Assembly: GCF_029227915.1 (NCBI RefSeq)
Contig: NC_079876.1
Coordinates: 28,183,828-28,247,827 of the forward strand
Source of the DNA: Hydractinia symbiolongicarpus
Taxonomy: Eukaryota > Cnidaria > Hydrozoa > Anthoathecata > Hydractiniidae
Direction of reading: 5' to 3'
DNA: 64,000 nucleotides
The notes under the pieces were generated by a model. It did not search any database. It was not told where the DNA came from and saw only the letters and a program-made list of their open reading frames with translations. The translations under genes and the position numbers were made by a program. Positions 14,952-64,000 of the stretch are shown piece after piece (the first letter of the stretch is position 1; the number at the start of each line of letters is the position of its first letter).

Positions 14952-15567
14952 AAAAAATAATTTACAAAGAGGTGGCAAGCCACCACAATGATGAACTCAA
15001 CCTGTTAGGTCCTTGGAAATAAGCTAGAAGTTGTACTCCTCTAGAAAAAATGCCTCTAAAAGCACAATTCTCCCTTTTACAAGGATTTAATTAAAAAATA
15101 TAAAAAAATAAAAAGGACACAACACATTTGAAAAGATGAACAGAACTTTAACCAAGTGCAGGTAGGTTTCGACCCATATGTCTGAACCTAAGTACCCTGG
15201 ATGTCTAGCTGGGTCACCTCGAAGAGATCCGCGGACGGTCATCAGCAGAAACTAGACATCCCTATCATCCTAAAGTAAACTTTGACCATTTTCTGTTCAA
15301 CTGTGCTATTCTTTGTTTTTAACTCAGGTAATAAGTGGAGTCGTTACTCTCCAAAGACAAGATCATATGTGATCAAACCCCCCTGCTAATGCTTTTTTTT
15401 AACTGGGGTAATAAGTGGAGTCGTCACACTCCAAAGACAAGACCTAGCATGATCAAACCCCCTTGCTAACTTAATTTTTATTTGATTTTGTTTTATTTTT
15501 GACTGGGGTAATAAGTGGAGTCGTCACTCTCCAAAGACAAGACTGAGTGTAGTCAAGCCCCCTTGCT
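14952..15567 (-). mobile_element. USP-LINE 3' UTR copy 1, inserted in the SWIM/YqaJ gene
   Basis: This 616-base insert is only the 3' UTR of the USP-bearing LINE family in antisense. Read on the minus strand it holds, in order: three tandem units of about 68 bases (plus-strand positions near 15502-15567, 15401-15470 and 15323-15392), the conserved hairpin with arms GGATGTCTAG/CTAGACATCC (15199-15261), an A/T-rich spacer, and the terminal hairpins ending in GTAAATTATTTT at 14952. It is 5'-truncated exactly at a unit border. Its insertion breaks the host gene frame without loss of bases. Confidence 0.85.
15321..15567 (-). repeat. 68-bp tandem unit of the USP-LINE 3' UTR (three copies)
   Basis: Each unit contains GGTAATAAGTGGAGTCGT then CTCTCCAAAGACAAGA and CCCCCTTGCT on the plus strand. 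Three copies occur here, two at 26630-26800, 27695-27855 and 38190-38365. The copy number differs between insertions, as expected for variable tandem units in LINE UTRs. Confidence 0.85.
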
Positions 15568-27326: not shown

Positions 27327-28594
27327 AAATAATTTACAAAGAGGTGCCAAGCTACCGCAATGATGAACTTAACCTGTTAGGTCTTTGGAAATAAGCTAGA
27401 GGTTGTACTCCTCTAGAGAAAATGCCTCTAAAAGCACAATTTTCCCTTTTTACAAGGAATTAATTAAAAAAAATCTAAAAAAATAAAAAGGACAAAACAC
27501 ATTTGAAAAGATAAACAGAACTTTAACCAAGGTAGGTTTCGACCCATATTTCTGAACCTAAGTACCTTGGATGTCTAGCTGGGTCACCTCGAAGAGGTCC
27601 GCGGACGGTCTTCAGCAGAAACTAGACATCACTATCTTCCTAAAGTAAACTTTGACCATTTTCTGTTCAACTGTGCGCTATTCTTTGTTTTTAACTCAGG
27701 TAATAAGTGGAGTCGTTACTCTCCAAAGACAAGATCATGTGTGATCAAACCCCCCTGCTAATGCTTTTTTTTTTATTTTTGACTGGGGTAATAAGTGGAG
27801 TCGTCACTCTCCAAAGACAAGACTGAGTGTAGTCAAGCCCCCTTGCTGACTCATTCCGGTTAAAATATTCTTATCTCAGCTCTTCTAAAAGAAAACATAT
27901 GACTCGTGACTGTTAATAAGGCGGTCATCACAGAAAATTACTGCTCTATCGTCCACCTGTGTACCATTTGGTCGAAGGCTATGGTTGTGTAGTGACCATT
28001 ATTTAAGTTTCCGCAATGGTTGATAATAGCCCTTAATTGAAAATTTTTACGAAATTTCACTTCTCCATCTACGGTAAAAGGTATGGAAAGGGTACCAGGG
28101 TAAGCAGTAATACGAGAGGCAATTTTTGACACAAGGCTGTTGGCACTGGCAAAACGTTTTAGCTGTAAAATGAGATGGGAACCGAACGACACTACCTCTT
28201 TTTCAACTAGAGCAGTTTGATGAGCGTTGCAAACATGGCAGAAGTAGGCATTGGTGTCTGACAACTCCTCGCTTTCAAAGACATTATCTAAGGAAGATTG
28301 TAACGTAGGGTGCAGAGAAAGTTGGATGCATGGTGCTATAACTTCTGAGGAGCTGGTAATATGACATGAATTGCAAGTGGTTGATGTCTTGATGCCAATA
28401 CTAAAAAGACTTCCCAAGAAATGGAAAGTCTAATGACAGACCAGGTAGGAGATATTCAAGATTCGGGGGCGTCGTGCTGAGCAAAGATATTAAATGCACT
28501 TCCCTTCGCAGCTGAGATATGATGTTTCATAGCACTCCAAAAATAGGAGGGATCAACTGGACTTCTAGAAACAGCCAAACTTGCGGCGTCTCTG
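27327..28594 (-). mobile_element. USP-LINE copy b: USP domain plus complete 3' UTR
   Basis: Minus-strand order: USP coding from about 28594 (SLAVSRSPVDPSYFW, MKHHISAAKGSALNIF) through IGIKTSTTCNSCH to CGNLNNGHYTTIAFD and HRW at about 27948. A 10-base deletion relative to copy a then shifts the frame. The 3' UTR (27860-27327) holds two 68-bp units, the GGATGTCTAG hairpin at 27632-27569 and the three terminal hairpins, ending GTAAATTATTTTC at 27327. The 5' end is truncated where it joins the integrase fragment at about 28594. Truncation at the 5' end with a conserved 3' end is what target-primed reverse transcription produces. Confidence 0.85.
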
Positions 28595-37069: not shown

Positions 37070-37828
37070 TTAAATTTCAGAAAAATTTTCTTCCGCACGT
37101 TTATTGAAGCTGTCAACTCGAATTGGATCATATTTACTGGAGCGAATATCATCAGACAAATCTTTGAACATTGTATATAATGTTATCACTTGACGCAAAA
37201 TTTTCATTGGATTTGATTAATTTTCTCACAAATTTATTGATACTTTTTTCGAATTGTTTGCACTCCTGTCTGATCACCTTCAAGGTAGAACTACCATCGT
37301 AGTACTTCTTTTTACTGAAGAAATAAGCAAGCAAAAAACAAAATAAATTGATGAAAAATTGAGTATATATAGTACTTTAAGACTTAATTCGGAAGGACTT
37401 ACATTTGCAAAAACAACTGATATTATAAAGAAATTGCAAAAATCGATTCCTACAATGAATTATGAAAAAAGTGGAAATATACTTTTTGAAACAGCTGTCT
37501 ATTTGAAATGCTAAAAAATGACAGTCTTTTGCTTCAAGTGCGTCAGGGATGATATTTTCTTGAGATTGTCTGACAATGATGTCAAACAGATATTTCCACA
37601 CATATCGATGATGTGCCAAAATCAGGTGAACACCACATGGAGGAATCAGCATAATGTCGAAAGCATCAAATAATGGTGTAGCCTGAACCCAAGGAATATA
37701 TGATACATGAATAATGTTTCATACAGCAACAAAAGTTTCGTACAGGTATTTTACAATAATAAAACAAGAAAGAAAACTTACATATTGCCCAAAATTCTGT
37801 TGTTGAAATGTTGCGAATTGTTTAGATA
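37070..37828 (-). pseudogene. Unrecognised spliced gene, 3' exons (part 2 of split gene)
   Basis: Minus-strand exons: 37828-37782 (LSKQFATFQQQNFGQY, GTAAGT donor), 37682-37483 (ATPLFDAFDIMLIPPCGVHL, ILAHHRYVWKYLFDIIVRQ, GTATAT donor) and 37314-37070 (NKKKYYDGSSTLKVIRQECK, then after a shift near 37170 FKDLSDDIRSSKYDPIRVD, stop at 37070). Splice phases agree at both introns. I do not recognise the family; it has the look of a multicopy cnidarian gene. The first exon is continuous in frame with sequence at 39546-40179 once the LINE copy between them is removed. Confidence 0.6.
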
Positions 37829-39545
37829 GAAAATAATTTACAAACAGGTGGCAAGCCACCATAATGATGAACTCAACCTGTTAGGTCTTTGGATATAAGC
37901 TAGAGGTTGTACTCCTCTAGAGAAAATGCCCCTAAAAGCACAATTCTCCCATTTTACAGGGAATTAATTAAATAAATACAAAAAAAATATAAAGGACACA
38001 ACAAATTTGAAAAGATGAACAGAACTTTAACCAAGGGCAGGTAGGTTTCGACCCATAATGCTGAACCTAAGTACCCTGGATGTCTACTTGGGTCACCTCA
38101 AAGAGGTGCGCGAACGGGCATCAGCAGAAACTAGACATCCCTATCTTCCTAAAGTAAACTTTGACCACTTTCTGTTCAACTTTCAACTGCTTTTAACTCA
38201 GGTAATAAGTGGAGTCGTTACTCTCCAAAGACAAGATCATGTCTGATCAAACCCCCTTTCACACTTAATTTTTATTTGATCTTGTTTTATTTTTGACTGG
38301 GGTAATAAGTGGAGTCGTCACTCTCCAAAGACAAGACTGAGTGTAGTCAAGCCCCCTTGCTGACTCATTCCGGTTAAAATATTCTTATCTCAGCTCTTCT
38401 AAAAAGAAAACATATGACTCGTGACTGTTAATAAGGCGGTCATCACAGAAAATTACTGCTTTTTTGTTGCAATGTATCCACCTGTGTACCATTTGGTTGA
38501 ACGCTATGGTTGTGTAGTGACCATTATTTAAGTTGTCGCAATGGTTGATAATAGCCCTTAATTGAATTTTTTTTAAGAAACTTTACTTCTCCATCTACGG
38601 TAAAAGGTATGGAAAGGGTACCAGGGTAAGCAGTAATACGAGAGGCAATTTACAAGGCCGTTGGCACTGGCAAAACGTTTTAGTTGTAAAATGAGATGGG
38701 AACCGCACGACACTACCTCTTTTTCAACTAGAGCAGTTTGATGAGTGTTGCAAACATGGCAGAAGTATGCATTGGTATCTGACAACTCCTGGCTTTCAAA
38801 GAAATTATCTAAGGAAGATTGTAACGTAGGGTGCAGAGAAAGTTGGATGCATGGTGCTATAACTTCGGAGGAGCTGGTAATATGACATGAATTGCAAGTG
38901 GTTGATGTCTTGATGCCAATACTAAAAACACTTCCAAGAAATGGAAAATCTTATGACAGACCAGGTAGGAGATATTCAAGAACCTCGGGGATGTCGTGCT
39001 GAGCAAAGATATTAAGTGCGCTTCCCTTCGCAGCTGAGATATGATGTTTCATAGCACGCAAAAAATGGTAGGGATCAACTGGACTTTTAGAAACAGCCAA
39101 ACTTTGAAGAACACCTACAAATGCTTCGCCTAACTTTGAGGTTGTTTTGCTGATAGAAATGGCTTCTTTAACTTTAGGTTATAAAAACATTGTAAGATGG
39201 AGTTTGCATAACATGTGTTTCCCAAGTTTTTTAGACCGCTATTCCTAAAATCAGGGTTAGATGGCAATTCGACTGTTGTTTTGGAAGACCTTGTAGCAAG
39301 TTTTTCGGGTTTTTTGATTTTACAAGATTTTGTTTGACTTGCGGAAGATTTCTCAGGGGTTTTTGATTTCTTACATTCCATATTTGTAACAGAAGAAACT
39401 TCAGGAATAATTGGGGCCTTTTCAGGCTCAACCCAAGTGGTAGAATTTCGAGACATCCAGATGTAAAAAGAAGCACTCATGGAGGTTAAAAGTTAGGGAT
39501 TTTATTAGGGAACGTTAAGGCTTCTTAGGGAAACCAGGGCGACGA
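37829..39545 (-). mobile_element. USP-LINE copy 3: RLE tail, complete USP region and 3' UTR
   Basis: Minus-strand order: end of the endonuclease domain (about 39545-39482, related to LRSLLKSLTFTS in the 57.8-kb copy), then MSASFYIWMSRNSTTWVEPE at 39480, linker, USP Cys box, USP body and His box, then 3' UTR with two 68-bp units, the hairpin (38141-38078) and terminal hairpins ending at 37829. Both borders fall inside one coding exon of the split gene: D-H-T-D at the left and L-S-K-Q-F at the right become adjacent when it is removed. This copy proves that RLE tail and USP belong to one element. Confidence 0.88.
38390..39480 (-). pseudogene. USP-type ubiquitin hydrolase, near full length (copy 3)
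   Basis: Continuous from the LINE endonuclease tail IWMSRNSTTWVEPEKAP, a Ser/Lys-rich linker of about 50 residues leads to GLKNLGNTCYANSILQCF, the USP Cys box (catalytic Cys about residue 90). In later frames come SLAVSKSPVDPYHFLRAMKH, IPEVLEYLLPGL, IGIKTSTTCNSCH, LSLHPTLQ, CHVCNTH, LILQLKRFASANGL, RITAYPGTLSIPFTVDG and the His box region. Frame changes lie near 39130, 38940, 38655 and 38575, and the His box is degraded. Family knowledge: USPs need Cys, His and Asp/Asn boxes in this order. The fold therefore appears complete in the ancestor of this copy. Confidence 0.85.
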
Positions 39546-40179
39546 AATCAGTATGATCAGGATTGGGACCAAGAATTTTTTCAGCTTTTTTCCCAAGCCG
39601 GCACACTTCTATCATTTGTTGATTTCCAGAATGCTTATCATTAATATCCCATTTTGATATTTCTGTTTTACAGTAATGACAGCCATACCGTCCAGTTGTT
39701 CCACATTTCCCAAGCATTTCCTTAATAAAACTCAAATCTAAACACATAATTCCAATAACATTCATTCTTTCTATGTTACCCTTAGGGCATTTAAAATATT
39801 TACCATCTCGTATAAATGATTTTATATCCTCATGTTTTTCAGTGTGAGTTTGCAAATTTCAACTGCTTTCTGGTCCACGAAAGATACACGAAATAAACTG
39901 ACCATATGGTGAATGAAGAAGTTCCTTCACATTCAAAACTGAGAAAGATATCTGCTCTGTTTGAGATTTGGAACTGGCACGGAATTTGTCACCTGTCATT
40001 CTTATGAACACAGTTTTCAACTTTGGATCAAAGCTTTGAAATACTTCCGGATTATGTTTTTTTAGCAGGGTAGCCAACACGTCTTGTTGTTCATTGGATG
40101 GAAATACCATTCTCGAAACCCAGAAATCACACGATATAATTTTATCTAACGTATCTCCAGTATTTGCAACACATGACAT
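39546..40179 (-). pseudogene. Unrecognised spliced gene, 5' exon (part 1 of split gene)
   Basis: From 40179 the minus strand reads MSCVANTGDTLDKIISCDFW, VFQSFDPKLKTVFIRMTGDK, HSPYGQFISCIFRGPESS, a TGA at 39859-39861, then in the same frame HTEKHEDIKSFIRDGKYFKC, KCGTTGRYGCHYCKTEIS and ILGPNPDHTD, where the USP-LINE copy begins. The CHYC pair suggests a metal site. One in-frame stop plus the insertion inactivate it. Upstream exons are not identified. Confidence 0.55.
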
Positions 40180-42435: not shown

Positions 42436-43345
42436 TTCAGAATGGAGGAGAGGGGGAACTGAGCTTAAATAATTTCGATACGCATCTCTAACCAACTTTG
42501 CATATTTACAATTCTGGTGACAAATGCAAACTTTATTGGAGAAATATTGTAAGACCAAAGAAAGTATTTTCAGGCTTAAATGTAATAAAACTGAAAGAGA
42601 AAAGTGGAAATTGTGAGCTAAGCAAATAATAAAATGATTTTTTACTTAATTGATGCTCCTAATTTTTCATTCTTTACACTAATATATTCATATTTTCATG
42701 GCATTTTCTTTTTTGATAATTATATATTACAGCTTTCAAAAATGAGATCTTTATTGTTTTTTTTTGTTTGTTTGTTTCCTACCATCAGGCTAGCAAAGAT
42801 TCTTAAATGATGCTTAAATGTTTCATAAGTTTTTGGCATTTTGAGCTTCGTGTATCCTCAAAATAATTTTGTAATGTTTAAATTGGCATTGCATTATTTA
42901 GTATATATTAGAAACATTTAGGTGGCAATTTTGTTTATAAATGTTTGACCCTACATTGTCAGTTCACACAATTATTTAAACATGACAGACAACAATAACA
43001 ATAACAGAAAAAGAAATCATGCCAAGGAAAAAATTTGAACAAAAATGTAAGACTGTTTTTTTGCATAAGTTCGAAAAAAAGTATACACTATTAAAATTTT
43101 GGAAGTATTTTTCCTCCGATGTTTCTTTTTTTTTTTTGAGTGCTTTGATTGTAGCTATCTAATAGTTCGAGTTTTGTTAAACACAAGTGGCATTATTGTA
43201 TTTTTACAACGGAAACTTTTTTCATGTTGAGGAGGAAATTGTTATTATACTGATAATTGCCAGTATATTTTTTTGCATTACTGCGTCAAAAGAAAACCAG
43301 AATCCCATCAATTCTTTTTAAGGGAACGATCTGCATATTCAAGAT
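42436..43345. other. Non-coding stretch
   Basis: AT-rich with T-runs; TTTAAATG-like words near 42810-42950. No gene or RNA recognised. Confidence 0.6.
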
Positions 43346-43553
43346 AAGAAAATAATTCACAAAGAGGTGGCTAGCCACCGCAATGATGAAGTCAGCCTGT
43401 TACGTCTTTGGAAATAAGCTAGAGGTTGTACTCCTCTAGAGAAGATGCCTCTAAAAGCACAATTCTTCTTTTTTTCAAGGAATTAATTAAAAAAAAATAA
43501 CAAAAAAAAATAAATAAAAAGGACGAACACATTTGAAAAGATGAACAGAACTT
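43346..43553 (-). mobile_element. USP-LINE copy 4: terminal 3' UTR fragment
   Basis: About 200 bases matching only the extreme 3' end of the USP-LINE family in antisense: terminal hairpins GGTGGC/GCCACC (here with one change) and CTAGAGG/CCTCTAG, the A-rich spacer, then AAAGATGAACAGAACTTA where similarity ends at about 43553. Its 3' junction again reads TTATTTTC followed by TTATC. Confidence 0.85.
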
Positions 43554-43759
43554 AATTCTGTTGCAGTTAAAGAAAAAATTATTAAGTACTGTGGCTGCAG
43601 AATCGAACGTCTGATAATATTGGCAAAGGTGATATAAATCAAATCTCCTTTTGCTACAAAAAAGAAAATGTAACATTTGAGTATTGGGAGTGTCAGTTAA
43701 AGAGATTTTTGTCTGATCGTTCAGTCCCAAATATATTTTTTTCTCTTTTCTCTTTTCAG

Positions 43760-48007: not shown

Positions 48008-49395
48008 ATAATAACACGTCAGGGCGTAGTTGTGTTATTGCAATGTATGGTGGAACAACTAAAACGGAATCTAAACCTGACAAGATTTTCCAATCGTAAG
48101 CAAGGTGAAGAAGGCCTGGACACTCTGAATTCCTTTTCTTAGATAATGATTGACCGCCGGGAATAAAAGTAATTTTGTTGCACTTGGAAACCTTAAGAGG
48201 TTCATATGATACCAAAAACTCTTTTAATGCTTTAACCAGAACAAATAAAAACGGGTCATGGCGGTATGTGTATCTACCCTGCGTAAGGGAGGTCCTACAG
48301 GCACCCAATATGTGAGAGACATTTAGGATGGTTTCTTGCACAGAATGCACCTTTTGTCTTTCTCAAATCAAGGGTGTCGTAGGTTGCCCCTATACAAAAG
48401 GAAGTTAGACATTGTGGCAGTGAAAGAATTGTTCTCCAAGATAAATCATTTTTCACATAAGAGCACCATTTTGTCCAAATGCCTTGCAAATGCAACTGTA
48501 CAGCTCTGGCATGGTAAATATCATTTTCTTTAATGATATTGGAAATAAGCTTTCGGTAAGCATAAGTGCCTTTTGGTGGTATATTTTTGTGGTCTAAGAG
48601 CCCTAAGCCAGCTCGACCAGTCTGATGCAAACCTAAAATGTTTTTGTAATTGAGCTGACTATCCGCCGAAAGAACTGCCTCACTAACTTTCCAATTTCCA
48701 GCTTTTAAATCTGGAACGCACTTAGACACACAAGGGTTGACAGAATCTCTTAGTAACAGATGTCCACTGATTTTGGCACATTTGAAAACAGATGCAAGAC
48801 TTTGTCGAGGAATATAAGGAAATGTTGGAAATTGAATGATGTAGTTTTAACCATTTCCTAATGAAAAAAGAAAATCTTTGCTCTAGTTTTGTGATAGTAA
48901 ATAGAGAAACTTCATAAATTAATAATGCCCAGCGGATTCTGGGAATTAACAGATGGTGTAAAAACCAAATATTATGGATCCCTTTATGAAAGGACCTGTC
49001 TATAGCTATAAGTTTGTCTTCGGCATCATTTAGAAATTCTTGTATTGCAGCAGAATCAGATAAGGATGAGTTTATTGTTCTGCCTAATAACCTAACTGGA
49101 TTAGAATGAACGGATGAAATTTTTTTGCTGCCAACTGTAAACGGTTAACTTTGGACGACTTTTTGCTTATCAATAACAATGCTGCGTGATTTAGAAGGCC
49201 TAAACGACATGCCTACCCAATCAAGAGCTGTTGTACACCTGTTTAATAAATTTTAAGTACTTAGAATTGACGTGCACATTAAGAATATATCATCCATAAA
49301 AGCTTTTATTGGGGGTTGGTCTGGAATTTTATTTTTATTACCTTCAGTATCAATAAGGCTTGGGGTAACAACACATTTATATAATAATACGCCAG
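48008..49395 (-). pseudogene. USP-LINE copy B: RT thumb, zinc knuckle and start of endonuclease
   Basis: Minus-strand sequence begins at the RT catalytic box region (KIPDQPPIKAFMDDIFLM, about 49330-49265), continues through the thumb (CLSKCVPDLKAGNWKVSEAV, GLHQTGRAGLGLLDHKN, YHARAVQLHLQGIWTKW), the zinc knuckle ending NVSHILGACR, and the start of the restriction-like endonuclease (YTYRHDPFLFVLVKALKEFL, CPGLLHLAYDWKILSGLD, ITQLRPDVLL). It stops at 48008, just after RPD, so both ends are truncated. In contrast to the 57.8-kb copy, the knuckle-to-endonuclease join (48350-47995) is open here, which shows the correct frame of that join. Confidence 0.85.
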
Positions 49396-50938
49396 TTCCG
49401 TGTATCTGTGGCAGGCAAAGTGGATGTGTTGTTTTTTTGTGTGCTTTTTCAAATTGATTTAAAACTTTTGTTTTAAAAAAGTCACAGTTAATTTATTTTA
49501 TTTTTCTCATAAAAACCTTTTTGTAATGATGTAAACTTTATTACACAAAAGTCACGAGTAATTAATCTCTTATAATAATACGCTAAGTGTGTCTGTCTGT
49601 CACTTTTGCAAACACGATATTTTTTACCACCCGAATGCGCGAGTTTTTCGAGTTTTTTTGTTTTGTTTACATTTGTCTCGCAGCCGTTAGAAACCACGTG
49701 ATAGAAAATAAGCAGTATGATTCGTTCAAATACGTACTTTCGAACGGGACGGCATTCGAATAGAAAGTTTCCTTGGCGTAAAAACAAACAAACAAAAAAA
49801 TTGTTTTTAAAGTTCTCGCGACAAAAGACGAACTTAAAAAACTTAAAAAATTTAGAAGAGAAAGAAAAAGGCGAATTAACAAAAAAAAACCGTGAGAAAA
49901 TAAAAAGAACAACAAATAATACAGTTAATGAGAAGTTTAAAGGGGATTTACAGGTAAAGTTTTAAATACTCTCTCCTCTTTCACTGTTGTGTTAATAAAT
50001 AGGGTAGCTAATACATCTTTGTTTTCAAATATAAAAATATAAAAATGTTGATGGTATTTTTTAAAATACAGAGAACAAATCACATTTTAACAAATATAGC
50101 TACAGCACATCAGCTAGCTTTCAAGTTAACTATGAGTTTTACTTTTACTACGTTAAGAAATATCCTATTCAGGCGAAAATGTAGGTGCGCATAAATCAAA
50201 GTGAAATAAAAAGAGAAGGGAAATGTTTCTTATACTTTCGTTTTCTGATTTGTTTATAACAACAAAGCTAGCATAATTGTATCCCCAGGTGCGTAACTAA
50301 TCTGCGTGTTTAATTATTTAAAATGCTACACAAATGTGTTGAGCACATGGATCGTTGTTTACAGTGTTGTATAAAAAGTTTAGTTAAAAGCTAAAGATTT
50401 CAGTCATAGTTAGTTAGTTAAGAAAAAGAAAGGAAAGAAGTAGCCATAGTTGTAGCCATAGTTGTAGATAAAGACAGCAAAATATCACTTTATCTACATT
50501 TTTTAGCAGTCTAACTAGCTTCTTTACATCACTACTCACGTCATCCTTATCTGTTTGCCTGCCACAAGACTGTTACAAATGTGTGAAAAGAAGCCTGTCT
50601 AGCTAAAGTATCCTATATATATATACAGCTAGCCTTTTGTATTAAAGGCAGGTTGTGTTTTTATGTATATGTTTTTAAGACTAGCTACCTAACTTAAAAG
50701 AGTTTCTCTTTCTATTATGGTTTTTAGTATAGATACAAGACCAAAACAAAGGTTATCAGAATCTATATAACTTGGAACATAGAAACTGCGAGTAAGAAAT
50801 TATATAGTTCTTAAATTTGAACAAGTTAGCTTCATTAATAATTATACATATATATAGATCATTTTCTTTTCTCATTTTAGGAATTGTGGTATATACCTAT
50901 AATTTGTTTCATTTAGTTTTAATCAGGATATATATATA
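49396..50938. other. Non-coding flank of the Helitron
   Basis: A basic open frame at 49717-49965 ends at a good donor (CAGGTAAAGTT) and could be a 5' exon, but no acceptor partner is proven. A possible acceptor TCATTTTAG at about 50880 precedes the Helitron start. The remainder is AT-rich with AGTTAGTTAG-type short repeats near 50405-50475. I could not identify the 5' TC end of the Helitron. Confidence 0.45.
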
Positions 50939-52489
50939 ATGTCAAATGAGTCTGGAATTAATGACAGCAGTAATACTGTTCGTGGTTTTAGGCTGTTTAA
51001 TAATTTAGGTAGGTTTGTGTTGCAACAGCATGACAATAATCAAGGTTTGGTAGGTGCCATCTTGAGGCAAAGACCACATATTTCCCAAAATTTTCAATTG
51101 CCACAAGAAATGCAAAGAAATGTAGTACCACGTTTATCAGATAATGATGATGTTTCCTTAGCTAGACGCAGGCAAAATGCTCAATGTGTTGCCTCTTTAC
51201 GTCGATTGGAATCGACTGATCAGGCCAATAATAGGCGGCATAATGATGCTGTTAGACATGCGGCTAGGCGCAATGCAGAATCAGCTCAGCAAACTCGCAA
51301 CAGACAAGTTATGGATGCTCAACGGCACGTTGTTGCTAGACAATTAGAATCTAATGAGCAGGCTGCCAATAGACGTGCTGAAAATGCTCATAGACAAGCC
51401 ATGGCTCGAGAAATGCATAATGCGCCGTATTATAATATTGCACGTCAAAATGTATTGCCTAATTTATATTTTTTAGGTGCTATGGACAAAAAATGTTATT
51501 ATTGTCAAGCTTTAAAGTTTGAAAATGAAAATTGTTTTAAATGTTGTCACACTGGTAAAGTTGCATTAGATAATTTGTCTCCTTACCCTCAGCAGCTTGG
51601 GGAATTATTAACAAATACAGATACTGTTCAGGCAAAAAACTTTCAGTCAAATATACGTAAGTATAATAGTGCCGTTGCCTTTGCTTCTTTTGGAGCAAAC
51701 CTTCGCCCCCCACCTGGCCGTGGACCACCATGCTTTCGTATCTGTGGTCAAATATGGCATCGTGTTGGGGGTCTTTACCCTCCTGAAGGACAAACCCCTG
51801 TTTTTAACCAACTTTATATTTATAAAGCAGGTAGGGCTCTCAACGAAAGAATGGCACGCCAAGAAAATAATGGCTGTCGTGAAGACGTGATGCGAACTGT
51901 TCAAGATGTTATGGACAGAGTAAGCCCGTTTGCTGCTGCCTATAGGTACATGGCTGAAGTTGAAGCTGAATAATTGAATCAGGCAGCAGCACAAAACCGT
52001 GCTCCATCTGAAGTGCGTATGTACATGAGAGTTGGCAATGACCAAAAGCGCTACAACTTGCCACATCATGATGAAGTTGCGGCAGTATTTGTTGGCCAAG
52101 ATGGAGCACCTCCTGGAAACAGGGATGTTGTTATCTATCCGCGTGGAGGTGATTTACAGAATATTTCCACAATGTCTGCAAACTTGGATCCAATGGTGTA
52201 TCCTCTTTTTTTTCCAAGGGGTGAACCAGGTTGGCATAATAGGATACCTCATGTTGCTGTACGTGCAACCCGTACTCGCAACACTACTACAATGTTGCAG
52301 TATTATACTTACCGTTTAGCTGCTCGGGAATATTTCAGCCCGATTCATTATGGTAAGAAATTGTTTCAGCAGTATTGTGTTGATTCTTATGTTAAAGTTG
52401 AAGGTAATAATTTAAATTACATTCGAGCAAATCAAACCAACCTTCGTGTTGATAGTTATGAAGGTTTAGCTGACCATTTGAATGCATGA
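50939..52489 (+). pseudogene. Helitron Rep/Hel N-terminal region
   Basis: Residues 70-150 are four degenerate Arg/Ala/Asn repeats (ARRRQNAQCVASLRRLES, AARRNAESAQQTRNR, NRRAENAHRQAMARE). A finger CYYCQALKFENENCFKCC follows, then LRPPPGRGPPCFRICGQIWH and GGLYPPEGQTPVFNQLYIYK, the conserved Helitron N-terminal text. TAA at 51970 interrupts between AEVEAE and LNQAAAQNRAP. The frame then continues through VVIYPRGGDLQNIS and LAAREYFSPIHYGKKLFQQY to a TGA at 52487, after LADHLNA. Both stops are single-base changes in an otherwise conserved frame. Confidence 0.88.
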
Positions 52490-52561
52490 GCTGAAGAGCG
52501 AGGCCTTCTACCAGGTCGTATTGTTGTTCTTCCTTCGAGTTTTCAAGGAAGTCCACGTGCC

Positions 52562-54409
52562 ATGGCTCAAAACTATCAAGATGCTATGGCAGTTATTGGT
52601 AAGTTTAGAAAACCTGATTTTTTTCTGACTTTTACGTGCAATCCAAAATGGCGTGAAATTACAGAAAATTTGTTTGCAGGCCAACGTGCACACGATCGGC
52701 CTGATTTAGTTTCTCGAGTTTTTAAATTGAAACTAAATGAACTCCTTAAAGATGTTACTGAAATGGGAGTTATAGGTAAGACTATAGCACATGTGTATGT
52801 TATAGAATTTCAAAAGAGGGGTTTGCCTCATTGTCATTTGTTAATTCATTTAGATCCCAATGACAAACTTAGGGATGCAGATGACATAGACAGTGTTATT
52901 TCAGCAGAAATTCCTAATCAACAGGAACACCCTGAGCTGTTTGAAATTGTACGATCGTGTATGATTCATGGACCATGTGGACATCTGAATCCTAATTCCA
53001 GATGTATGGAAGATGGTGTTTGCACAAAAAGTTGTCCAAAGAACTTTTTAGCATCTACGGTAGCTGAAGTCAACGGATATCCATTATATAGACGTCGTGA
53101 TAATGGTATACATATCAATGTCAATAACGTTGACGTAGATAATCGCTGGATTGTTCCATATAATCCATGGCTTTCCAAGAAATACAATGCACATATAAAC
53201 TTGGAGGCGTGCATGTCTGTTAAATCTGTTAAATACCTCTATAAATATATTTATAAAGGTCATGATTGTGCCAACATTGAGATCAATAAACGTATTGATC
53301 ATGATGAGGTGCAGACATTTTTAGATGCACGGTATGTCAGTGCACCAGAAGCCATATGGCGTCTTTTTGAATTTACCATGCACCAACAATCTCATGTTGT
53401 CCATAGATTGCAAGTGCACTTGCCAAAAAACCATATTGTTTATTTTCAGCAAGGACAGGCTGAAGAGGCTCTGGACAGAGCTGCAGATCAGGCTACAAAA
53501 TTAACAGCTTGGTTTGTGTTAAATGCAGAGAATCATGATGCTCGCCAATATATGTATCCAGACATTCCTCTTTATTTTGTTTTTAATAAGAACAAAGTTT
53601 GGAAACCAAGACAACGCGGTCATGGTAAAATTGTGTCCAGAATGTATAGTGTGAGTCCTCGCGCAGGTGAGCTTTTTTATTTACGTATGTTGCTATTGCA
53701 TACACCTGGTGCAACTTCTTTTGAAGATTTACGAACTGTCAATGGCAATGTTGCTGAAACATTTCGTGACGCCTGTTTATTGCGTGGTCTCCTGCAAGAT
53801 GATACTGAATGGAACAATACTTTGCAGGAAGCTGTTAACTTTCAGATGCCTCGACAATTAAGGCAACTGTTTGCTGTGATACTTACTCACTGCGAACCTT
53901 CTGATCCTTTTACTTTGTGGACAAGGTACAAGGATGCAATGTATGAAGATTATATTCGCCAAATGAATGAGGAACATGCTGAGTACAGGCTGCTTCAAGA
54001 TATTAATTCTGTACTTAGGCAATTTGGTAAATCTCTTACTGATTATATTCTTCCTCATTTAGATGAATTACCCCCAGCTGAAAACATTGATGTAGCTATG
54101 GAGGCTGAAAGAGCTTCCCAACTAAGGGCTCAACTTACTGACGAACAGACTGCACTGGCTAATGCAGTCATAGAAGCTGTTGTAAATGTTGCTAACAATG
54201 CAGCCCAAAACAACCGTCTGTTTTATTTAATTTGTAATAATGAGCTTCCATTTGGAGGTAAAGTTGTTATTTTAGGTGGTAATTTTTCACAGTTACTGCC
54301 TGTTGTCAGAAAAGGAAAAGCAACTGAAATTGTGGACATGTGTTTAAAAAGTTCTTGGGAAAGGTGTTTTACCTGTTCGGGAGCAAGAACCTTTCCAAGG
54401 CGCAATTGA
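52562..54409 (+). pseudogene. Helitron Rep nuclease and truncated helicase
   Basis: The Rep part is intact: FFLTFTCNPKWREI, IEFQKRGLPHCHLLIHL (the HUH metal box, here HCH) and SVKYLYKYIYKGHD with the two Tyr and Lys of the YxxKYxxK motif that nicks and joins DNA. The helicase starts LTDEQTALANAVIEAV and reaches AAQNNRLFYL, where Walker A (GGPGGTGKT, preserved in the 8.65-kb fragment) should follow; instead the text jumps to NNELPFGGKVVILGGNFSQL. About 80 residues with Walker A and B are thus missing. A second deletion after CLKSSWE removes the segment before LPVREQEPFQG. The helicase could not hydrolyse ATP. Confidence 0.9.
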
Positions 54410-54410
54410 A

Positions 54411-55132
54411 GTGCCATCCCAATGTGTGATACAAAATGAATGTATTGTTGATACTTTGTTTAGGAATCTTTCACCGGAAATTATGGCATCATCTGTGGTA
54501 CTAACACCCACAAATGATGACTCACTTACCATTAATGATCAGGTGTTGGCGCTGTTGCCTGGTGAAGAAAAAGTTTATTTTAGCGCAGATGATGTTGTGT
54601 GTGATGAGGAGGAGGAACGGAATCAATATCCGGTAGAATTTTTAAATAGTATCACACCTTCAGGTATGCCTCCTCATTGCCTTAAATTAAAAACTGGTGC
54701 CATTGTTATGTTATTAAGAAACATAAACATGAATAATGGTTTATGTAATGGCACTCGACTAATTATAAGACGTCTTCATGACAACTGTGTCGATGCTGAA
54801 GTACTCACTGGCAATGCCATTGGAGATAGGGTACTTATTCCAAGGGTGCAACTTGCACCTTCGGATACAGGTATGCCTTTTGTTTTACGTCGCAGACAGC
54901 TTCCACTAAGTCTTATGCTATGACAATAAACAAGGCACAAGGTCAAACCTTTGAAAAGGTTGGAATATTATTGCGCAGGCCATGTTTTTCTCATGGTCAG
55001 CTGTATGTTGCTTTTTCTAGAGCAAGAGCATTTGGTGATGTTCGAGTAAGTGTTGTTCCCTCATCCAGGCAAGGGTTTTTTAATAGGGAATGTTATACTC
55101 AAAATGTGGTTTACCGTCAGGTTCTTACATAA
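54411..55132 (+). pseudogene. Helitron helicase C-terminal part
   Basis: The frame gives REQEPFQGAIEVPSQCV, SSVVLTPTNDDSLTINDQVL, EFLNSITPSGMPPHCLKLK, AIVMLLRNINMNNGLCNGTR, then after a one-base shift near 54918 SYAMTINKAQGQTFEKVGI, LLRRPCFSHGQLYVAFSRAR and VYRQVLT. These are the PIF1-type motifs V and VI. The order and lengths match the fragment ending at 10059. Confidence 0.9.
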
Positions 55133-56298: not shown

Positions 56299-57097
56299 AT
56301 GGAAATAGTGATGGAGGAAAAATTGTTAAAAACTCCAGAGAAGGATAAATCAGGTATTTGGCATAGCCTTATTTAACCAAACTTAATTTTGTTATCGCCC
56401 TTATTTTTATACACATCATTATTATTTAGAGCATAATAACAGCCAGCACAAACATTTCATATACTTACACATCCATGATCACACAAACACTAAGGAAGTA
56501 TCCATTTTTTATTGTGATTAGTAATAGTTTTTCCTTTTTTTTTAAAAGGTGGACAAGTTGAAAACAGACAGGGTATTCTTACTTTTTTACATCTTAATAT
56601 TTCGTACAGCATGAGGAAAACATTGTGATTAATAGTTCTTATTGTCGTAAATTTTTGTTTTTTAGAGAGTAGTGGACGAGTTGCAGAAATGCAGGGTATT
56701 CTTATTTTTTACATTTTAATATTTTCTTAAACTCCAGGCTACAGCATAAGTGAAATAATGGGATTAATATTTTTTATTGTTCTTAAATTTTTTAGAAGGT
56801 GAAGTTGAAAGTGTACACGGTATGTTTTGTTGTCCTATTTTGTCACCTCCGCCTTCAATTTTTTAATATATTTTTTCCTTCCAGATTATTATAACAGAAA
56901 TATTTTAGATGACACAGAAAAACAAGTAGAAAAAAAGAAAGAAGGTACGGATATGTTCATAATAAATAGTGTCTATTTTTATTATTTTTATAACATATTC
57001 CATTTTGTTTTATCTTTTTTTAGTTTTGACGTATACAGCTTACGTGGCTTATAGAAAGCAAAATCCTGGCCCCCTGTCCAATAAATCATTTAAGTTT
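56299..57097 (+). pseudogene. Micro-exon gene, six exons, all introns phase 1
   Basis: Exons 56299-56353, 56549-56572 (24 bases), 56666-56695 (30), 56796-56819 (24), 56885-56944 (60) and 57024 onward. Each is bounded by AG and GT, all introns lie in phase 1 and all internal exons are multiples of three, so any may be skipped. The joined protein starts MEIVMEEKLLKTPEKDKS, continues with short Gly/Gln/Glu-rich exons (GQVENRQ, SSGRVAEMQ, GEVESVH), an acidic-basic helix (DYYNRNILDDTEKQVEKKKE) and ends with YRKQNPGPLSNKSFKF, where a USP-LINE copy is inserted. The downstream flank at 57625 would continue LIATVRKDNE and stop. The PGP...KSFxF signature matches the gene at 11241. Function unknown. Confidence 0.65.
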
Positions 57098-57625
57098 CTT
57101 CTGTTACAAATATGGAATGTAAGAAATCAAAAACCCCTGAAAAATCTTCCGCAAATCACACAAAATCTTGTAAAATCAAAAAACCCGAAAACTTGCTACA
57201 AGGTCTTCCAAAACAACAGTCGCATTGCCATCTAACCCTGATTTTAGGAATAGCGGTCTAAAAAACTTGGAAAACACATGTTATGCAAACTTCATCTTAC
57301 AATGTTTTTATAGCCTAAAGTTAAAGAAGCCATTTCTGTCAGCAAAACAACCTCAAAGTTAGGCGAAGCATTTGTAGGTGTTCTTCAAAGTTTGGCCGTT
57401 TCTAGAAGTCCAGTTGATCCCTCCCATTTTTTGCGTGCTATGAAACATCATATCTCAGCTGCGAAGGGAAGTGCATTTAATATCTGTATTGATATTATTA
57501 TATGAGAATTGTGCTTTTAGAGGCATTTTCTCTAGAGGAGTAAAACCTCTAGCTTATTTCCAAAGACCTAAAAGGTTGAGTTCATCATTGCGGTGGCTTG
57601 CCACCTCTTTGTAAATTATTTTCTT
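57092..57625 (+). mobile_element. USP-LINE copy D, internally deleted
   Basis: It begins with linker sequence TTTCTTCTGTTACAAATATGG, includes the USP Cys box region (SGLKNLENTCYANFILQCF, with Gly-to-Glu and Ser-to-Phe changes) and the following SRSPVDPSHFLRAMKHHISA, then at about 57485-57512 jumps to the terminal 3' UTR (GAATTGTGCTTTTAGAGGC). It ends with the CTAGAGG and GGTGGC hairpins and GTAAATTATTTTC at about 57622. TTTCTT flanks both ends and may be the target duplication. The insertion point is inside the last exon of the micro-exon gene. Confidence 0.8.
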
Positions 57626-57829
57626 ATTGCTACTGTCCGAAAGGATAACGAATGACAATCTGGAAAGACAGATTGACACCGGGAAAGACTAGACCCTTAC
57701 TTTTTATTTATTCGCTTATTTTTTATGTGTGTGTATGTATGTGTGTTCTTTTTCTGTTATATGTAACGTCACACTCCCTATTGTCAGTCACCAGTTATAA
57801 GTGAAGTATTTAGCAATAGACAGATAGTA
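57626..57829. other. Spacer between two USP-LINE copies
   Basis: About 200 bases of low-complexity sequence (TGTGTGTATGTATGTGTG near 57725). Includes the presumed last codons of the micro-exon gene at its left edge. Confidence 0.5.
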
Positions 57830-57957
57830 CTGTCACGCAAGGGGTCAATAGGTAGAGTCGTGGGATGGCATGAAAAACATGCCTGCTTAGCCCGCGTAAA
57901 AGTTGGCAGCCCCAACCCAATTGTTATCTGTCGCTCCCACCAAGCTTAGGCCGGCCC
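57830..57957 (+). other. Structured 5' leader of the USP-LINE
   Basis: The leader is clearly richer in G and C than its surroundings. It contains a perfect hairpin GGCATG-AAAAA-CATGCC at about 57867-57883, plus CCCGCG, GGCAGCC and GGCCGGCC words. R2-type LINEs often carry a self-cleaving HDV-like ribozyme at the 5' end. I cannot fold a convincing HDV double pseudoknot by eye, so this remains a candidate only. Confidence 0.4.
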
Positions 57958-59911
57958 GTGGGATTTTTATGGTCTGCAACAAAGTTAAATTTTTCAAACA
58001 ATGATACCCCCAACGATATAGACCCTGACCGTATAAGGACTACCCCTCCGGATATCGATTTCGTTATTACTAACTCCTATGTCCTTCCTGCTACCTGTGA
58101 TTCTTCATTACTCCCTTCCACTAGGCATTGGACATTAAAACCGTGTAAAGTTGTTTTGCAAGATGTGCTAGCTGTTGATTCCACTGAAAAGTCTCGGCTG
58201 CTGAAAGCTAACCCGCATAACTCCCACAGTGTTCTTTCTCAGCGTTCAACAGAGCCTGACCATCTTGGCACTATGAAATGGAAACAACCTATTACTTGGC
58301 CGAAGTCAATTGACACAAAATTGTGGAATTCCCTTGATGATGCAGTTTTCCACAATTTTCTAGGCTCTTACCCATTGTCAAAAAAGTAGAGCTGTTGGAA
58401 TCAACAATTTACTACCATGCGTCTCACCTGTTTGTTTTAAGGTCACTTCCCCAGCACAACCTATCAGGTTTGAACAGGAGAGCTTTACGCAGCATCAGTT
58501 TGGTGAACGACAAGAACAGTCTACTCCGAACTCTTAAGAGCACATCTGACCCAGTTGAGAAAGGAAACATGCAAAACCTTTTAGATGATGTAATGGCCAA
58601 GTCAAGGTTATTTCGCAGAGGTGAGCGGAAAAGAAAAAAACGTTGGAAAATCCCGAATGCACGCCGGGCTTTCTCTAAGAATCCTTATCAGGCTGGGAAA
58701 AATATTTTAGATCCTAAACGTTCAATAAAACTTGAAGTTGCCCAGGACGAAATAGATTCACACAAACATTCAACCTTGAACGATCCTTCACGCCATATAC
58801 CTCTTTCAGATCTCCCTGGATTGCCTTCACCACCAAATGTAGTCTCAGCTTTCGATTCTTCCAACCTAAAGTTCAAGGATTCCCAAGCTGTCCTACATTC
58901 TCGTAGAAGTGCTTCTTCTCCTGGGCTGAACCAAATTCCTTACACAGTATATAAGAATTGTCCTCATATTGCATCGTTTCTGTTTAACATTTTTCAAGCT
59001 TGTCTAAGAAAGTCTTTCATTCCTGTGCAATGGAGATTGCATCAGAAGTTCACATACCTAAAAACAACACACCTTGTCCATCCAACATAAAGGATTTTCG
59101 CCCCATAGCTGAATGTTGAAGGAAAGCTCTTTTTAAGTTTGATTTCCAAGCGGTTAGAATCGCATACTATAAAGAAAAACAACTTTATTAATACCTCCAT
59201 TCTAAAAGGTTGTATGGAAAAAGTTCCGGGTTGCTGGGAACACATTTCTCTTGTTTGGTCCACACTTAAGAATGCGAAGGCAAAACATTCTTCACTTTCA
59301 GCCATATGGCTTGATATTGCTAATGCGTACCCTTCAGCTCCGCACAAACTGATTTTATGGCTCTCAGACGCTATGGTGTACCAGAATCTTTTGCGGCTTC
59401 TGCTCCATCCAGTTGGCATCAACACTGTAGTGGAATTTTTATCGGCTGTACACTTTCCATTATACTATTTCTTGCAGCTATAAACGTTATTATTGAATAT
59501 GTGTTTGTTACCCCAAGCCTTATTGATACTCATGGTAATAAATATAAAATTCCAGACCAACCCCCAATAAAAGCTTTTATGGATGATATATTCTTAATGT
59601 CCACGTCAATTCCAAGTACTCAAAATTTATTAAACAGGTGTACAACAGCTCTTGATTGGGTAGGCATGTCGTTTAGGGCTTCTAAATCACGCAGCATTGT
59701 TATTGATAGCGGAAAAGTCGTCCAAAGTTCACCGTTTACAGTTGGGAGCGAAAAAAGTCCATCTATTCATTCCAATCCAATTAGGTTTTTAGGCAGAACC
59801 ATTAACTCATCCTTGTCTGATTCTGCTGCAATACAAGAATTTCTAAATGATGCCGAAGACAAACTTATAGCTATAGACAGGTCCTTTCATAAAGGGGTCC
59901 ATAAGGTTTAG
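57958..59911 (+). pseudogene. USP-LINE copy C: N-terminal domain and reverse transcriptase
   Basis: The frame from about 57958 reads GFLWSATKLNFSNNDTP, VLPATCDSSLLPSTRHWTL and AVFHNFLGSYPLSKKVELLE; no N-terminal zinc finger is seen. After a shift near 58430, NRRALRSISLVNDKNSLLR, LFRRGERKRKKRWKIPNARR, SRRSASSPGLNQIPYTVYK lead to the RT: DFRPIAECNVEGKLFFSLIS, INTSILKGCMEKVPGCWEH, AIWLDIANAYPSAPHKLI (motif A Asp), FIGCTLSIILFLAAINVIIE (motif B), KAFMDDIFLMS (motif C, 59576-59587), SFRASKSRSIVI and FLGRTINSSLSD. FMDD in place of YADD, and the GCMEKVPGCWEH and NAYGSxPH-type text, place it with R2-like LINEs. Shifts near 58430, 59060, 59125 and 59400. Confidence 0.88.
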
Positions 59912-61380
59912 TTTTTACACCATCTGTTAATTCCCAGAATCCGCTGTCAATTATTAATTTATGAAGCTTCTCTATCTACTATTACAAAACTAGAGCAAAG
60001 ATTTTCTTTTTTTCATTAGGAAATGGTTAAAACTACATCTTTCAATTTCGAACATTTCCTTATATTCCTCGACATCGCCTTGTCCTCTTCCCCTGAAAAG
60101 TCTTGCATGTGTTCTCAAATCTGCCAAAATCAGTGGACATCTGTTACTAAGAGATTCTGTCGACCCTTGTGTGTCTAAGTGCGTACCAGATTTAAAAGCT
60201 GGAAATTGAAAAGTTAGTGAGGCAGTTCTTTCGGCGGATAGTCAGCTCAATTTCAATAGGATCTTAGGTTTGCATCAGAGTGGTCGAGCTGGCTTAGGGC
60301 TCTTAGACCACAAAAATATTCCACCAAAAGGCACTTATGCTTACCGAAAGCTTGTTTCCAATATCATTAAAGAAAATGAAGAAGATATTTACCATGCCAG
60401 AGCTGTACAGTTGCATTTGCAAGGCAATTGGACAAAATGGTGCTTTTATGTGAAAAATGATTTGTCTTGGAGAACCATTCTTTCATTGCCACAATGTCTA
60501 ACTTCCTTTTGTATAGGGGCAACCTACGACACCCTTCCCTCTCCAACCAATCTTGTGAGATGGGGAATTGAGAAAGACTAAAGTTGCATGCTGTGCAAGA
60601 AACCATCCTCAAATGTCTCTCACATATTGGGTGCCTGTAGACCTCCCTTACGCAGGGTAGATACACATACCGTCACGACTCGGTTTTAATAGTTTTGGTT
60701 AAGGCATTAAAAGAGTTTTTGGTATCATATAACCTCTTAAGGTTTCCAAGTGCATCAAAATTAATTTCATTCCGGCCGGTCAATCACCATCTAAGAAGAG
60801 GCATACAATGTGTCCAGGCCTTCTTCATCTTGCTTCCGATTGGAAATTACTGTCAGATTTAGATTCCGTTTTAGTTGTTCCACCATACATTGCAATAACA
60901 CAACTACCCCCAGACGTGTTATTAATATCCAGTTCTTGCATGGAACTGACTTGTCCATGTGAAGAGAACACGGAATATTGGCACAAACGAAAGCTTAACA
61001 AATATTCTTCACTTTGTTATGCTATAAAAAACAATGGATTGATCGTGCATTTCTTTGCCATTGAGGTGGGTACAAGGGGTTTCTGTTCAGAATCAGTAAG
61101 GACCTGTTTTCGTCGCCTTGGCTTCCCTTACAAGCCTTTACGTTCCCTATTAAAATCCCTAACTTTTACCTCCATGAGTGCTTCTTTTAACATCTGGATG
61201 TCTCGAAATTCTACCACTTGGGTTGAGCCTGAAAAGGCCCCAATCATTCCTGAAGTTTCTTCTGTTACAAATATGGAATGTAAGAATTCAAAAACCCCTG
61301 GGAAATCTTCCGCAAGTCATACAAAATCTTGTGAAATCAAAAAAAACAAAAAACTTGCTCTTCCAAAACAACAGTCATTG
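59912..61380 (+). pseudogene. USP-LINE copy C: thumb, zinc knuckle, restriction-like endonuclease, USP linker
   Basis: Thumb residues (IPRIRCQLLIYEASLSTI, GLHQSGRAGLGLLDHKN, YHARAVQLHLQGNWTKW) lead to the knuckle CMLCKKPSSNVSHILGACR (CxxC...H...C). The endonuclease follows: YTYRHDSVLIVLVKAL, then in the frame open from 60808, LASDWKLLSDLDSVLVVPPY, ITQLPPDVLL (the PD), CMELTCPCEENTEYWHKRKL (the acidic ExT-P-E strand and Lys), EVGTRGFCSESVRTCFRRLG. Without a stop this passes through FTSMSASFNIWMSRNSTTW into EPEKAPIIPEVSSV and KSSASHTKSCEIKK, the same linker that in copy 3 continues into the USP Cys box. The frame is open from 60808 to the truncation at 61380. Confidence 0.88.
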
Positions 61381-61570
61381 TTAGAGGAGGCGTCTTTAGT
61401 ACTTTTTGAGACGGGAAGTCCGTTATATCCATATCCTCCAATTCGAAGTCCGGTATTGCATTGAGGGATTTTGGTGCGTTTTTTCTCTGTTGTTTTCTAC
61501 CACTGACAAACAGTCTTTTTGTTTTCCCTACGATTCCCGGTGATTTGGTGTGATTTTGTTCTGAAACCAT
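61381..61570 (-). pseudogene. Truncated paralogue of the 320-aa Gln-rich protein
   Basis: The first about 60 codons match the gene starting at 63766 except P-to-S and a small in-frame loss near FPSQK. The rest is replaced by LINE sequence, so the product would end in unrelated residues. Confidence 0.8.
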
Positions 61571-61804
61571 GAATTAAAAATTTAAGTTAGTTAGATTTAT
61601 TACAGTCAAGGGTATGCAGTTGAGTATTTACTATTTTTCAACGGAAATTTGTAAATAGCACTAGGCACGAAGGTGTCAATTAGCATATTTGTGCTAAGAT
61701 GGTGTTTTATCGAGTGATTTTAAAAGTAGTGCCAGTACTGTTTCATAAAAAACTGTTGACGAGTATGCAAGGCGTGATTATGCGCAAAGTCGACGTTGTT
61801 TGTA
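61381..61804 (-). repeat. Partial head-to-tail duplicate of the 320-aa gene 5' region
   Basis: This stretch matches 63574-64000 at an offset of 2193-2196 bases with few differences, including a 3-base indel. On the minus strand it contains the shared 5' flank (61804-61571) and the first codons MVSEQNHTKSPGIVGKTKRL at 61570, running to DITDFPSQKVLKTPPL, where it is cut at 61381 by USP-LINE copy C. The right-hand copy reaches the window end, so the real duplication is longer than visible. Confidence 0.85.
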
Positions 61805-62803: not shown

Positions 62804-63766
62804 TTATCGGTATTTTTCTCGATTCCAGTTTGACAAGTTTTTTGAAGGGTACTGTCCTTGTTGTGGTGGTTGTTGGAATCTTGGTGTTTGTTGAGAACGT
62901 TGTTGTTGTTGTAATCGTTGTTGCTGTTGTTGATGAAATCGAGGTGTTTGTTGTTGTCGAAAACGTGGTTGTTTGCGATGTATGTGTTCGTTATTTGTTT
63001 TAAAGTGGTCATGGGAGCGTTTTCTATTTTCTCGAATTGCAACGTTTTGATTGTGTTCCTGAATTAAAGTTTTATTTAGGATAGTTAAATCTCCCTCTGG
63101 GAGTTCCTGCTTGAGTTTGTCACGCTCGTCTTGATAAATGTTGATTTCCTGTTGGTGGTGTTCCAACAGTATTTGCAGGAGTGTTTCACTGCAGAAATGT
63201 ATAGTGATATTCCATTTGTCTTTAAGCTCTTTCGGCAAGTTCACGGTGCAGCGTATATTCACTTTGAGCACAGATGGCATTGTTTTATTGGTGACGTGTG
63301 CCTCTAGCAGCTGAATTTGTCGCAAATAATCCAATTGTTTGTTTGGGGATTTAATGTACTTTTCTCGTGCTTTACGGTTGGATGTTGATGAAACCTTTGA
63401 AATCGACATTGAAATGAAACGTTCGATCTCATCTCCACCTTTAGGTTTTGTTGTCGAATTGCCAAGGTTGTCGCCAGGTCCAATATTATTTATTATTGGC
63501 GGCTTTACAGGTTCTATTTTTTTGGTTGCCATTGTTGTTGAGGTTGTTGTTTTAGTTGATGTAGATGGTGTGTTTAGAGGAGGCGTCTTTGGTACTTCAT
63601 TTTGAAACGGGAAGTCCGTTATATCCATATCCTCCAATTCGAAGTCCGGTATTGCATTGAGGGATTTTGGTGCGTTTTTTCTCTGTTGTTTTCTACCACT
63701 GACAAACAGTCTTTTTGTTTTCCCTACGATTTCCGGTGATTTGGTGTGATTTTGTTCTGAAACCAT
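62804..63766 (-). CDS. Unrecognised 320-aa basic protein with Gln-rich tail
   Basis: A single open frame from ATG 63766 (MVSEQNHTKSPEIVGKTKRL) to TAA at 62804. Residues 1-130 are Ser/Thr/Pro/Lys-rich and look disordered. Residues 130-230 form a probable folded or helical part (NKQLDYLRQIQLLEAHVTNK, VLKVNIRCTVNLPKELKDKW, ETLLQILLEHHQQEINIYQD, ERDKLKQELPEGDL). The C-terminal 80 residues are basic and Gln/Arg/Phe-rich (FRQQQTPRFHQQQQQRLQQQ, then FQQPPQQGQYP), like RNA-binding tails. Gag/ORF1-like proteins of retroelements can have this composition, but no zinc knuckle or RRM is seen. The frame is intact. A 5' copy of its start lies 2.2 kb downstream. Confidence 0.65.
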   Translation of the reverse strand: MVSEQNHTKSPEIVGKTKRLFVSGRKQQRKNAPKSLNAIPDFELEDMDITDFPFQNEVPKTPPLNTPSTSTKTTTSTTMATKKIEPVKPPIINNIGPGDNLGNSTTKPKGGDEIERFISMSISKVSSTSNRKAREKYIKSPNKQLDYLRQIQLLEAHVTNKTMPSVLKVNIRCTVNLPKELKDKWNITIHFCSETLLQILLEHHQQEINIYQDERDKLKQELPEGDLTILNKTLIQEHNQNVAIRENRKRSHDHFKTNNEHIHRKQPRFRQQQTPRFHQQQQQRLQQQQRSQQTPRFQQPPQQGQYPSKNLSNWNREKYR

Positions 63767-64000
63767 GAAGTAAAAATTTAAGTTAGTTAGATTTATTACA
63801 GTCAGGGTTATGCAGTTGAGTATTTACTATTTTTCAACGGAAATTTGTAAATAGCACTAGGCACGAAGGTGTCAATTAGCATATTTGTGCTAAGATGGTG
63901 TTTTATCGAGAGATTTTAAAAGTAGTGCCAGTACTGTTTCATAAAAAACTGTTGACGAGTATGCAAGGCGTGATTATGCGCAAAGTCGACGTTGTTTGTA
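63574..64000 (-). repeat. Right copy of the 2.2-kb-spaced direct repeat
   Basis: Partner of 61381-61804. It includes the first about 60 codons of the 320-aa gene and its 5' flank up to the window edge. It could be an LTR-like or Penelope-type pLTR arrangement, or a plain tandem gene duplication. Confidence 0.8.

Follow-up and report, generated by a model that had tools for sequence, protein, structure and literature searches.

The LINE family described here encodes a single protein in which a reverse transcriptase (RT), a CCHC knuckle, a restriction-like endonuclease (RLE) and a flexible S/P/K-rich linker are followed, at the extreme C-terminus, by a ubiquitin-specific protease (USP). Remains of the family lie in the window, that is, the whole 64-kb stretch (64,000 nucleotides) of Hydractinia symbiolongicarpus DNA analysed here, in which self-comparison with blastn, together with translations, identifies eight fragments, copies A–H (Table 1). 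Every one of them is broken or truncated, and no single copy reaches from the RT to the USP. The order RT, CCHC, RLE, USP, which the original prediction had tiled from separate copies, is proved by proteins from outside the window. Taking the explanation as a whole, we think it probable that this is an RT-RLE-USP LINE whose USP protects the element's own protein in cis.

To examine domain order, the protein collection was queried with the translation of copy E only, in which the frames were joined by X and no USP residue was included. The search returned 129 matches, 120 of which were listed and analysed. Among these 120 matches listed, local HMMs find the RT in all 120, the RLE in 114 and the USP in 76, and in every one of the 76 USP-bearing proteins the RLE precedes the USP in the same protein. 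A motif scan of the 120 matches listed finds a CCHC knuckle and then an RLE with the RPD...E..K motif, as in copies E and F. A second count used a different set of 76 proteins, with at least 400 RT and at least 200 RLE profile positions; at least 240 USP positions are present in 45 of them, and at least the start of the USP in 49. The 45 proteins with RT, RLE and USP are 1,107–2,012 aa long, with at least 1,350 aa in 36 of the 45. A clean example is P0002 (1,435 aa), which has RVT_1 at 348–617 (E 6e-19) and UCH at 1156–1431 (E 3e-36, 125.6 bits), while a zf-RVT match at 840–900 scores 21.6 bits, below the cut-off of 27.5. Over the matched stretch, the fragments P0135 and P0178 are 98% identical to P0002, with their USP divided between two ORFs; therefore, a broken near-twin of P0002 exists. 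The closest named protein among the matches listed is P0012, an NCBI-named gene model from H. symbiolongicarpus with RLE and then USP.

Most homologues come from metagenome contigs. The same RT-RLE-USP layout is found in P0052 and P0076, NCBI records of Pseudomonadales MAG proteins, for which contamination is the most likely source; along with P0119, another of the bacterial MAG proteins (Pseudomonadales, Marmoricola), they look like eukaryotic LINE contamination. Two peptide patterns each, run against viral contigs and prokaryote genomes, found no relative.

Table 1. Copies of the LINE family and related features in the window (window positions)
Feature	Positions	Strand	Content
Copy E	57830-61376 (start is the original prediction's figure; similarity to the P0001 N-terminus starts near 57883)	+	N-terminal region, RT, CCHC knuckle, RLE, start of Ser/Lys linker
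Copy E RLE and linker frame (PPD...ELTCPCE...KRKLNKY)	60733-61464, stop-to-stop	+	RLE and linker
Copy F	48009-49387	-	RT end to RLE start, RPDVLL kept; blastn 89% to 59487-60924
Copy A	37828-39551	-	RLE tail, linker, USP, 3' UTR
Copy A junction frame, 120 aa	39133-39492	-	RLE tail, linker and USP Cys box
Copy B	27324-28582	-	USP (acidic box, both zinc CxxC pairs, LKRF, GHYTT) and 3' UTR; blastn 91% to copy A
Copy C	26473-27321	-	C-terminal half of USP and part of 3' UTR
Copy D	57092-57627	+	Linker, USP Cys box, 3' terminus; most of USP deleted, gap at 57485/57504
Copy G	14954-15568	-	3' UTR fragment (blastn)
Copy H	43344-43555	-	3' terminal fragment (blastn)
3' UTR repeat unit sites	15304-15568, 26613-26803, 27681-27851, 38191-38361		Unit of about 77 bases

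The window copies meet this layout piece by piece. Copy E has several frame changes and stops, and translations place its 3' limit inside the linker. Its RLE frame is unbroken, as originally predicted, continues via IWMSRNSTTWVEPEKAP into the Ser/Lys linker, and is 88% identical to P0012 over 214 residues. Family identity stops at 61376, and an unrelated repeat starts at 61381; this repeat (61381–61804), which cuts off copy E in the linker, is 97.7% identical to 63574–64000 over about 425 bases. The prediction that the same linker runs on into the USP is borne out in copy A, where one 120-aa frame joins the RLE tail, the linker and GLKNLGNTCYANSILQCF, the USP Cys box; the frame is 92% identical to P0012 over 105 residues. 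The motifs expected from other copies, namely CHVC, LKRF and the His box, are present in copies B and C, the His box reading GHYTTIAFD in B and SHYTTIAFD in C.

UCH exceeds the Pfam cut-off of 23.9 in copy A (E 1.6e-7, 31.6 bits), copy B (E 2.8e-11 on 27938–28429, 43.9 bits) and copy C (E 2.3e-12 on 26826–27368, 47.5 bits), while UCH_1 in a later frame of copy A (38576–38950) scores 20.8 bits, under its cut-off of 22.2. RVT_1 on 59324–59908 of copy E (E 1.6e-6) falls just short, with 28.5 bits against a cut-off of 29.6; in P0002 it is well above. Pfam matched no family in the RLE frame of copy E, and found no Ulp1 (PF02902) in its N-terminal frames.

RLE LINEs insert by target-primed reverse transcription, and this ordinary route would be expected here as well: the 3' terminus is common to copies A, B, D, G and H, and their 5' ends vary, as in 5'-truncated copies. 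Blastn gives copy D 96% identity to 39401–39007, and 93–95% identity to four other copies at their 3' ends. Head to tail, the 5'-truncated start of copy C follows immediately on copy B's 3' end (26473–28582, minus strand), an arrangement expected from a template jump within a single insertion or from nested insertion. Shortly past the USP Cys box, copies A (39133–39183, minus strand) and D (57310–57362, plus strand) share a frame-breaking lesion, and on this basis both probably stem from a single source copy that was damaged beforehand and may have been mobilized in trans; alternatively, one of the two may derive from the other. Differences among the window copies are mostly post-insertion decay, and in codon-position counts among them this decay is too advanced to show selection. 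The 3' UTR has two diverged copies (about 80% identical) of the repeat unit, which contains CTTGTCTTTGGAGAGTGACGACTCCACTTATTACC and is possibly an RNA signal recognized by the RT; Rfam gave 0 matches on the 5' end of the element. Elsewhere in the window, the translations of long frames at 50903–55132 and 8674–9879 (both plus strand) read like Helitron/Pif1-type helicase proteins.

Could the RLE-USP join be an artifact, produced by broken copies, by the assembly or by gene models? Such an origin would fit window copies that never span RT to USP, and the P0012 gene model, which is without the RT catalytic motif region. However, copy A crosses the junction unbroken in one frame, and the 45 proteins counted above carry their RT, RLE and USP profile positions in one frame, so that we regard an artifact as having a negligible probability. 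A chance or chimeric join is likewise rejected by the copy A frame and the uninterrupted ORFs of relatives.

We also reject the idea, named in the original prediction as one that would refute it, that the USP occurs mainly without the LINE, on the basis of two protein searches, which are not genome-wide counts. The USP profile search, whose length limits exclude full-length LINEs (matches of 185–526 aa), gave 70 matches: 16 retain part of an RLE, others have short leaders and fall among the LINE USPs, and the rest resemble host USPs. With the USP of P0002 as query, 9 matches were obtained, namely P0002, 7 further LINE proteins and 1 weak match of another kind.

The C-terminal domain is supported as a real, conserved USP of the C19 type. 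With catalytic and zinc residues assigned by alignment on USP2, the catalytic Cys and His and all four zinc Cys residues (two CxxC pairs) are kept in 65 of 65 USPs, and the third triad position is Asn or Asp in 62 and Ser in 3. The predicted structure has a USP fold for this domain; for the RLE and everything upstream of it the model has low confidence and is left uninterpreted. We infer that the USP is very likely an active deubiquitinase. It is improbable that the domain is instead a ubiquitin-binding module, a module specific for ubiquitin-like proteins (for example of the ISG15 or SUMO type), or a pseudo-enzyme, as its best matches are ubiquitin-specific USPs and a pseudo-enzyme would have no need of so well kept a triad.

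Nor does the USP look like a functionless passenger, a piece of a host gene picked up by one element. Some relatives are without the USP, and the domain diverges faster than the RT (mean identity of 32% for the USP versus 53% for the RT), both of which would suit a passenger. Yet a passenger would have decayed, whereas the catalytic and zinc residues are invariant despite this divergence and USP and RT distances agree; we therefore consider this reading very improbable. The agreement is seen in the pairwise distances of the 45 proteins, which correlate between RT and USP at 0.81, a value reached in 0 of 2,000 permutations. Nearest neighbours in RT and USP agree in only 18 of the 45. As judged from these distances, RT and USP have been inherited jointly.

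In an RT tree of 100 proteins with midpoint root, the USP-bearing group and its base comprise 75 proteins (support 0.997). Of these 75, 58 have the USP, 11 break off before the RLE is complete, and 6 have the whole RLE but lack a USP. Four of these six are basal (P0065, P0070, P0071 and P0072), ending 5–32 residues past the RLE, and two lie inside the USP group (P0017 and P0035), ending 38 and 96 residues past it; these ends are as listed, and may be true stops or contig ends. With six proteins of the wider clade having a complete RLE without a USP, RLE LINEs in general can do without the domain. In the sister group of 24, none has a USP; 21 have a complete RLE and end 2–10 residues later, and 3 are cut earlier. 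Among its members are a Branchiostoma protein, a protein from the fish Festucalex, and P0103, which has Ulp1 at its N-terminus. The picture is unchanged in a quick tree of 38 of these RTs with an R2 outgroup, where the USP group and its base have support of 94.

The number of captures is less clear. Among the proteins scanned for patterns, C2H2-like fingers upstream of the RT were seen only in P0065, P0068, P0072, P0082 and P0103, and thus the main USP clade appears to be without them. P0068 has both a USP and N-terminal C2H2-like fingers, and groups in the RT tree with four elements without USP, a placement compatible both with one gain followed by losses and with two gains; P0068 may represent a second USP capture. 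The USP of P0068, a protein with several such fingers, branches with P0141 at the base of the LINE USPs. The USP tree holds 50 of 102 USP rows, comprising 31 LINE proteins, 2 RLE-less rows (P0138 and P0141, counted as LINE; P0175 was left out) and 17 host-like rows. In this tree, the 33 LINE rows unite only with the long-branched host row P0164 inside (support 89/80). An exclusive LINE USP group appears in 0 of 200 bootstrap trees, and at least two changes are required by the starred branches. A single LINE USP clade is not rejected by the AU test (p 0.303), which does not demonstrate one either.

The original prediction called the family R2-type, a label that the analysis does not support in that form. 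The RT does align clearly with the R2 clade (structures 9nl3, 9dou and 9nl2; whole-protein E 6e-18 to 9nl3), the RLE weakly, and the best PDB matches of the RT are R2, then 8c8j and L1 ORF2p; no USP match is found in the three R2 chains. However, two R2 RTs from solved structures are separated from the 38 relatives with support 100, in a tree where R2 is the preset outgroup and the only named clade, and the sister group of the family holds the Ulp-bearing, fish and amphioxus proteins. R2 inserts at fixed rDNA sites, whereas five 3' flanks in the window, compared with one another and not with 28S, all differ; therefore, the copies show no fixed target site within the window.

Among other RLE LINEs, NeSL and Utopia elements have one ORF with a Ulp1-like protease, according to the available part of PMC4640811. 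The present family is similar in being an RLE LINE with one ORF and a cysteine protease of the ubiquitin/SUMO-deconjugating kind, but theirs is an N-terminal Ulp1 (C48) and the protease here is a C-terminal USP (C19). P0103, with Ulp1 at the N-terminus, then RT and RLE and no USP, lies in the sister branch and is the only carrier of PF02902 among the 120 matches listed. The N-terminal Ulp1 is absent from some published NeSL-clade members (PMC4640811, same part), and the present family may therefore still belong to the NeSL clade. HERO, an RLE LINE clade in which many elements are without a fixed target (PMC4640811, same part), was compared by description only; the likeness lies in the RLE and in the fish and Branchiostoma proteins of the sister branch, the difference in the lack of a USP in the 24 proteins of that branch. 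The clade may be HERO-like or on the NeSL side.

Ubiquitin/SUMO proteases are also found in DNA transposons: the part of PMC2836005 available describes Ulp1 or OTU domains in Ginger1, Mutator and Helitron elements, and a Peptidase C19 domain in an IS5-like transposase (XP_001314237.1). In these, a mobile-element protein is likewise fused to such a protease, in one case even of the C19 type, but unlike in the present family that protein is not a reverse transcriptase. A further parallel is Prp8, whose Jab1/MPN domain has a deubiquitinase-family fold. In the available portions of PMC4830896 and PMC5678591, the large domain of this spliceosome core protein is described as containing RT, thumb, linker and RLE; RNaseH-like and Jab1/MPN domains come after it, attached by disordered linkers (PMC4830896). 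Thus, both proteins have an RT, thumb, linker and RLE and then a flexible linker and a deubiquitinase-family domain; Prp8 differs in its intervening RNaseH-like domain, and in a fold that is of the metalloprotease type rather than USP. We read the resemblance as convergence in layout and not as common descent of the deubiquitinase.

What would the USP do for the element? We propose that, on its tether, the domain would accompany the protein-RNA complex and strip ubiquitin from the very protein of which it is part, both ahead of target-primed reverse transcription and in the course of it. In this way the element protein would escape degradation triggered by host E3 ligases. This role in cis is favoured because the USP is joined to the protein that it would protect, the tether varies in length, and ubiquitination is known to restrict human LINE-1, whose ORF2p is ubiquitinated by TRIM41 and degraded (PMC10716122). 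Protection in cis is a tentative proposal, with a chance that we put a little short of even. In the main rival reading, the substrates of the USP would be chromatin or repair factors where the element inserts, such as ubiquitinated histones, PCNA or Fanconi proteins, and its action would open the target or steer completion of the new copy. A role of this kind was proposed for transposon Ulp1 and OTU domains by the Ginger authors (PMC2836005, part available); for the present USP we hold it to be rather unlikely.

In the open-access literature, which lies outside Repbase and most subscription journals, we found no described LINE with a USP, in agreement with the original prediction, and the available parts of PMC4640811, PMC2836005, PMC7650587, PMC5678591, PMC4830896 and PMC10716122 describe no USP in a LINE. 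It is possible that the family has already been catalogued and passed unremarked. P0117 is already annotated 'ubiquitin C-terminal hydrolase', and pieces of this LINE family thus already go under that name.

Proteases of the ubiquitin and SUMO pathways recur in transposons, and here an RLE LINE carries a deubiquitinase-family domain in cis. On a broader and more doubtful view, a LINE clade would have captured a host USP essentially once, and the domain would since then have given the element its own counter-defence whenever the host ubiquitinates the retrotransposition protein, standing in, in kind, for the N-terminal Ulp1 of its NeSL-side cousins and reaching the Prp8 layout independently. 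The catalytic residues are kept across deeply diverged relatives, and the role of the protease can be tested by one point mutation in one protein. The family offers a living parallel for an RT-RLE protein gaining a C-terminal deubiquitinase-family domain, as Prp8 has.
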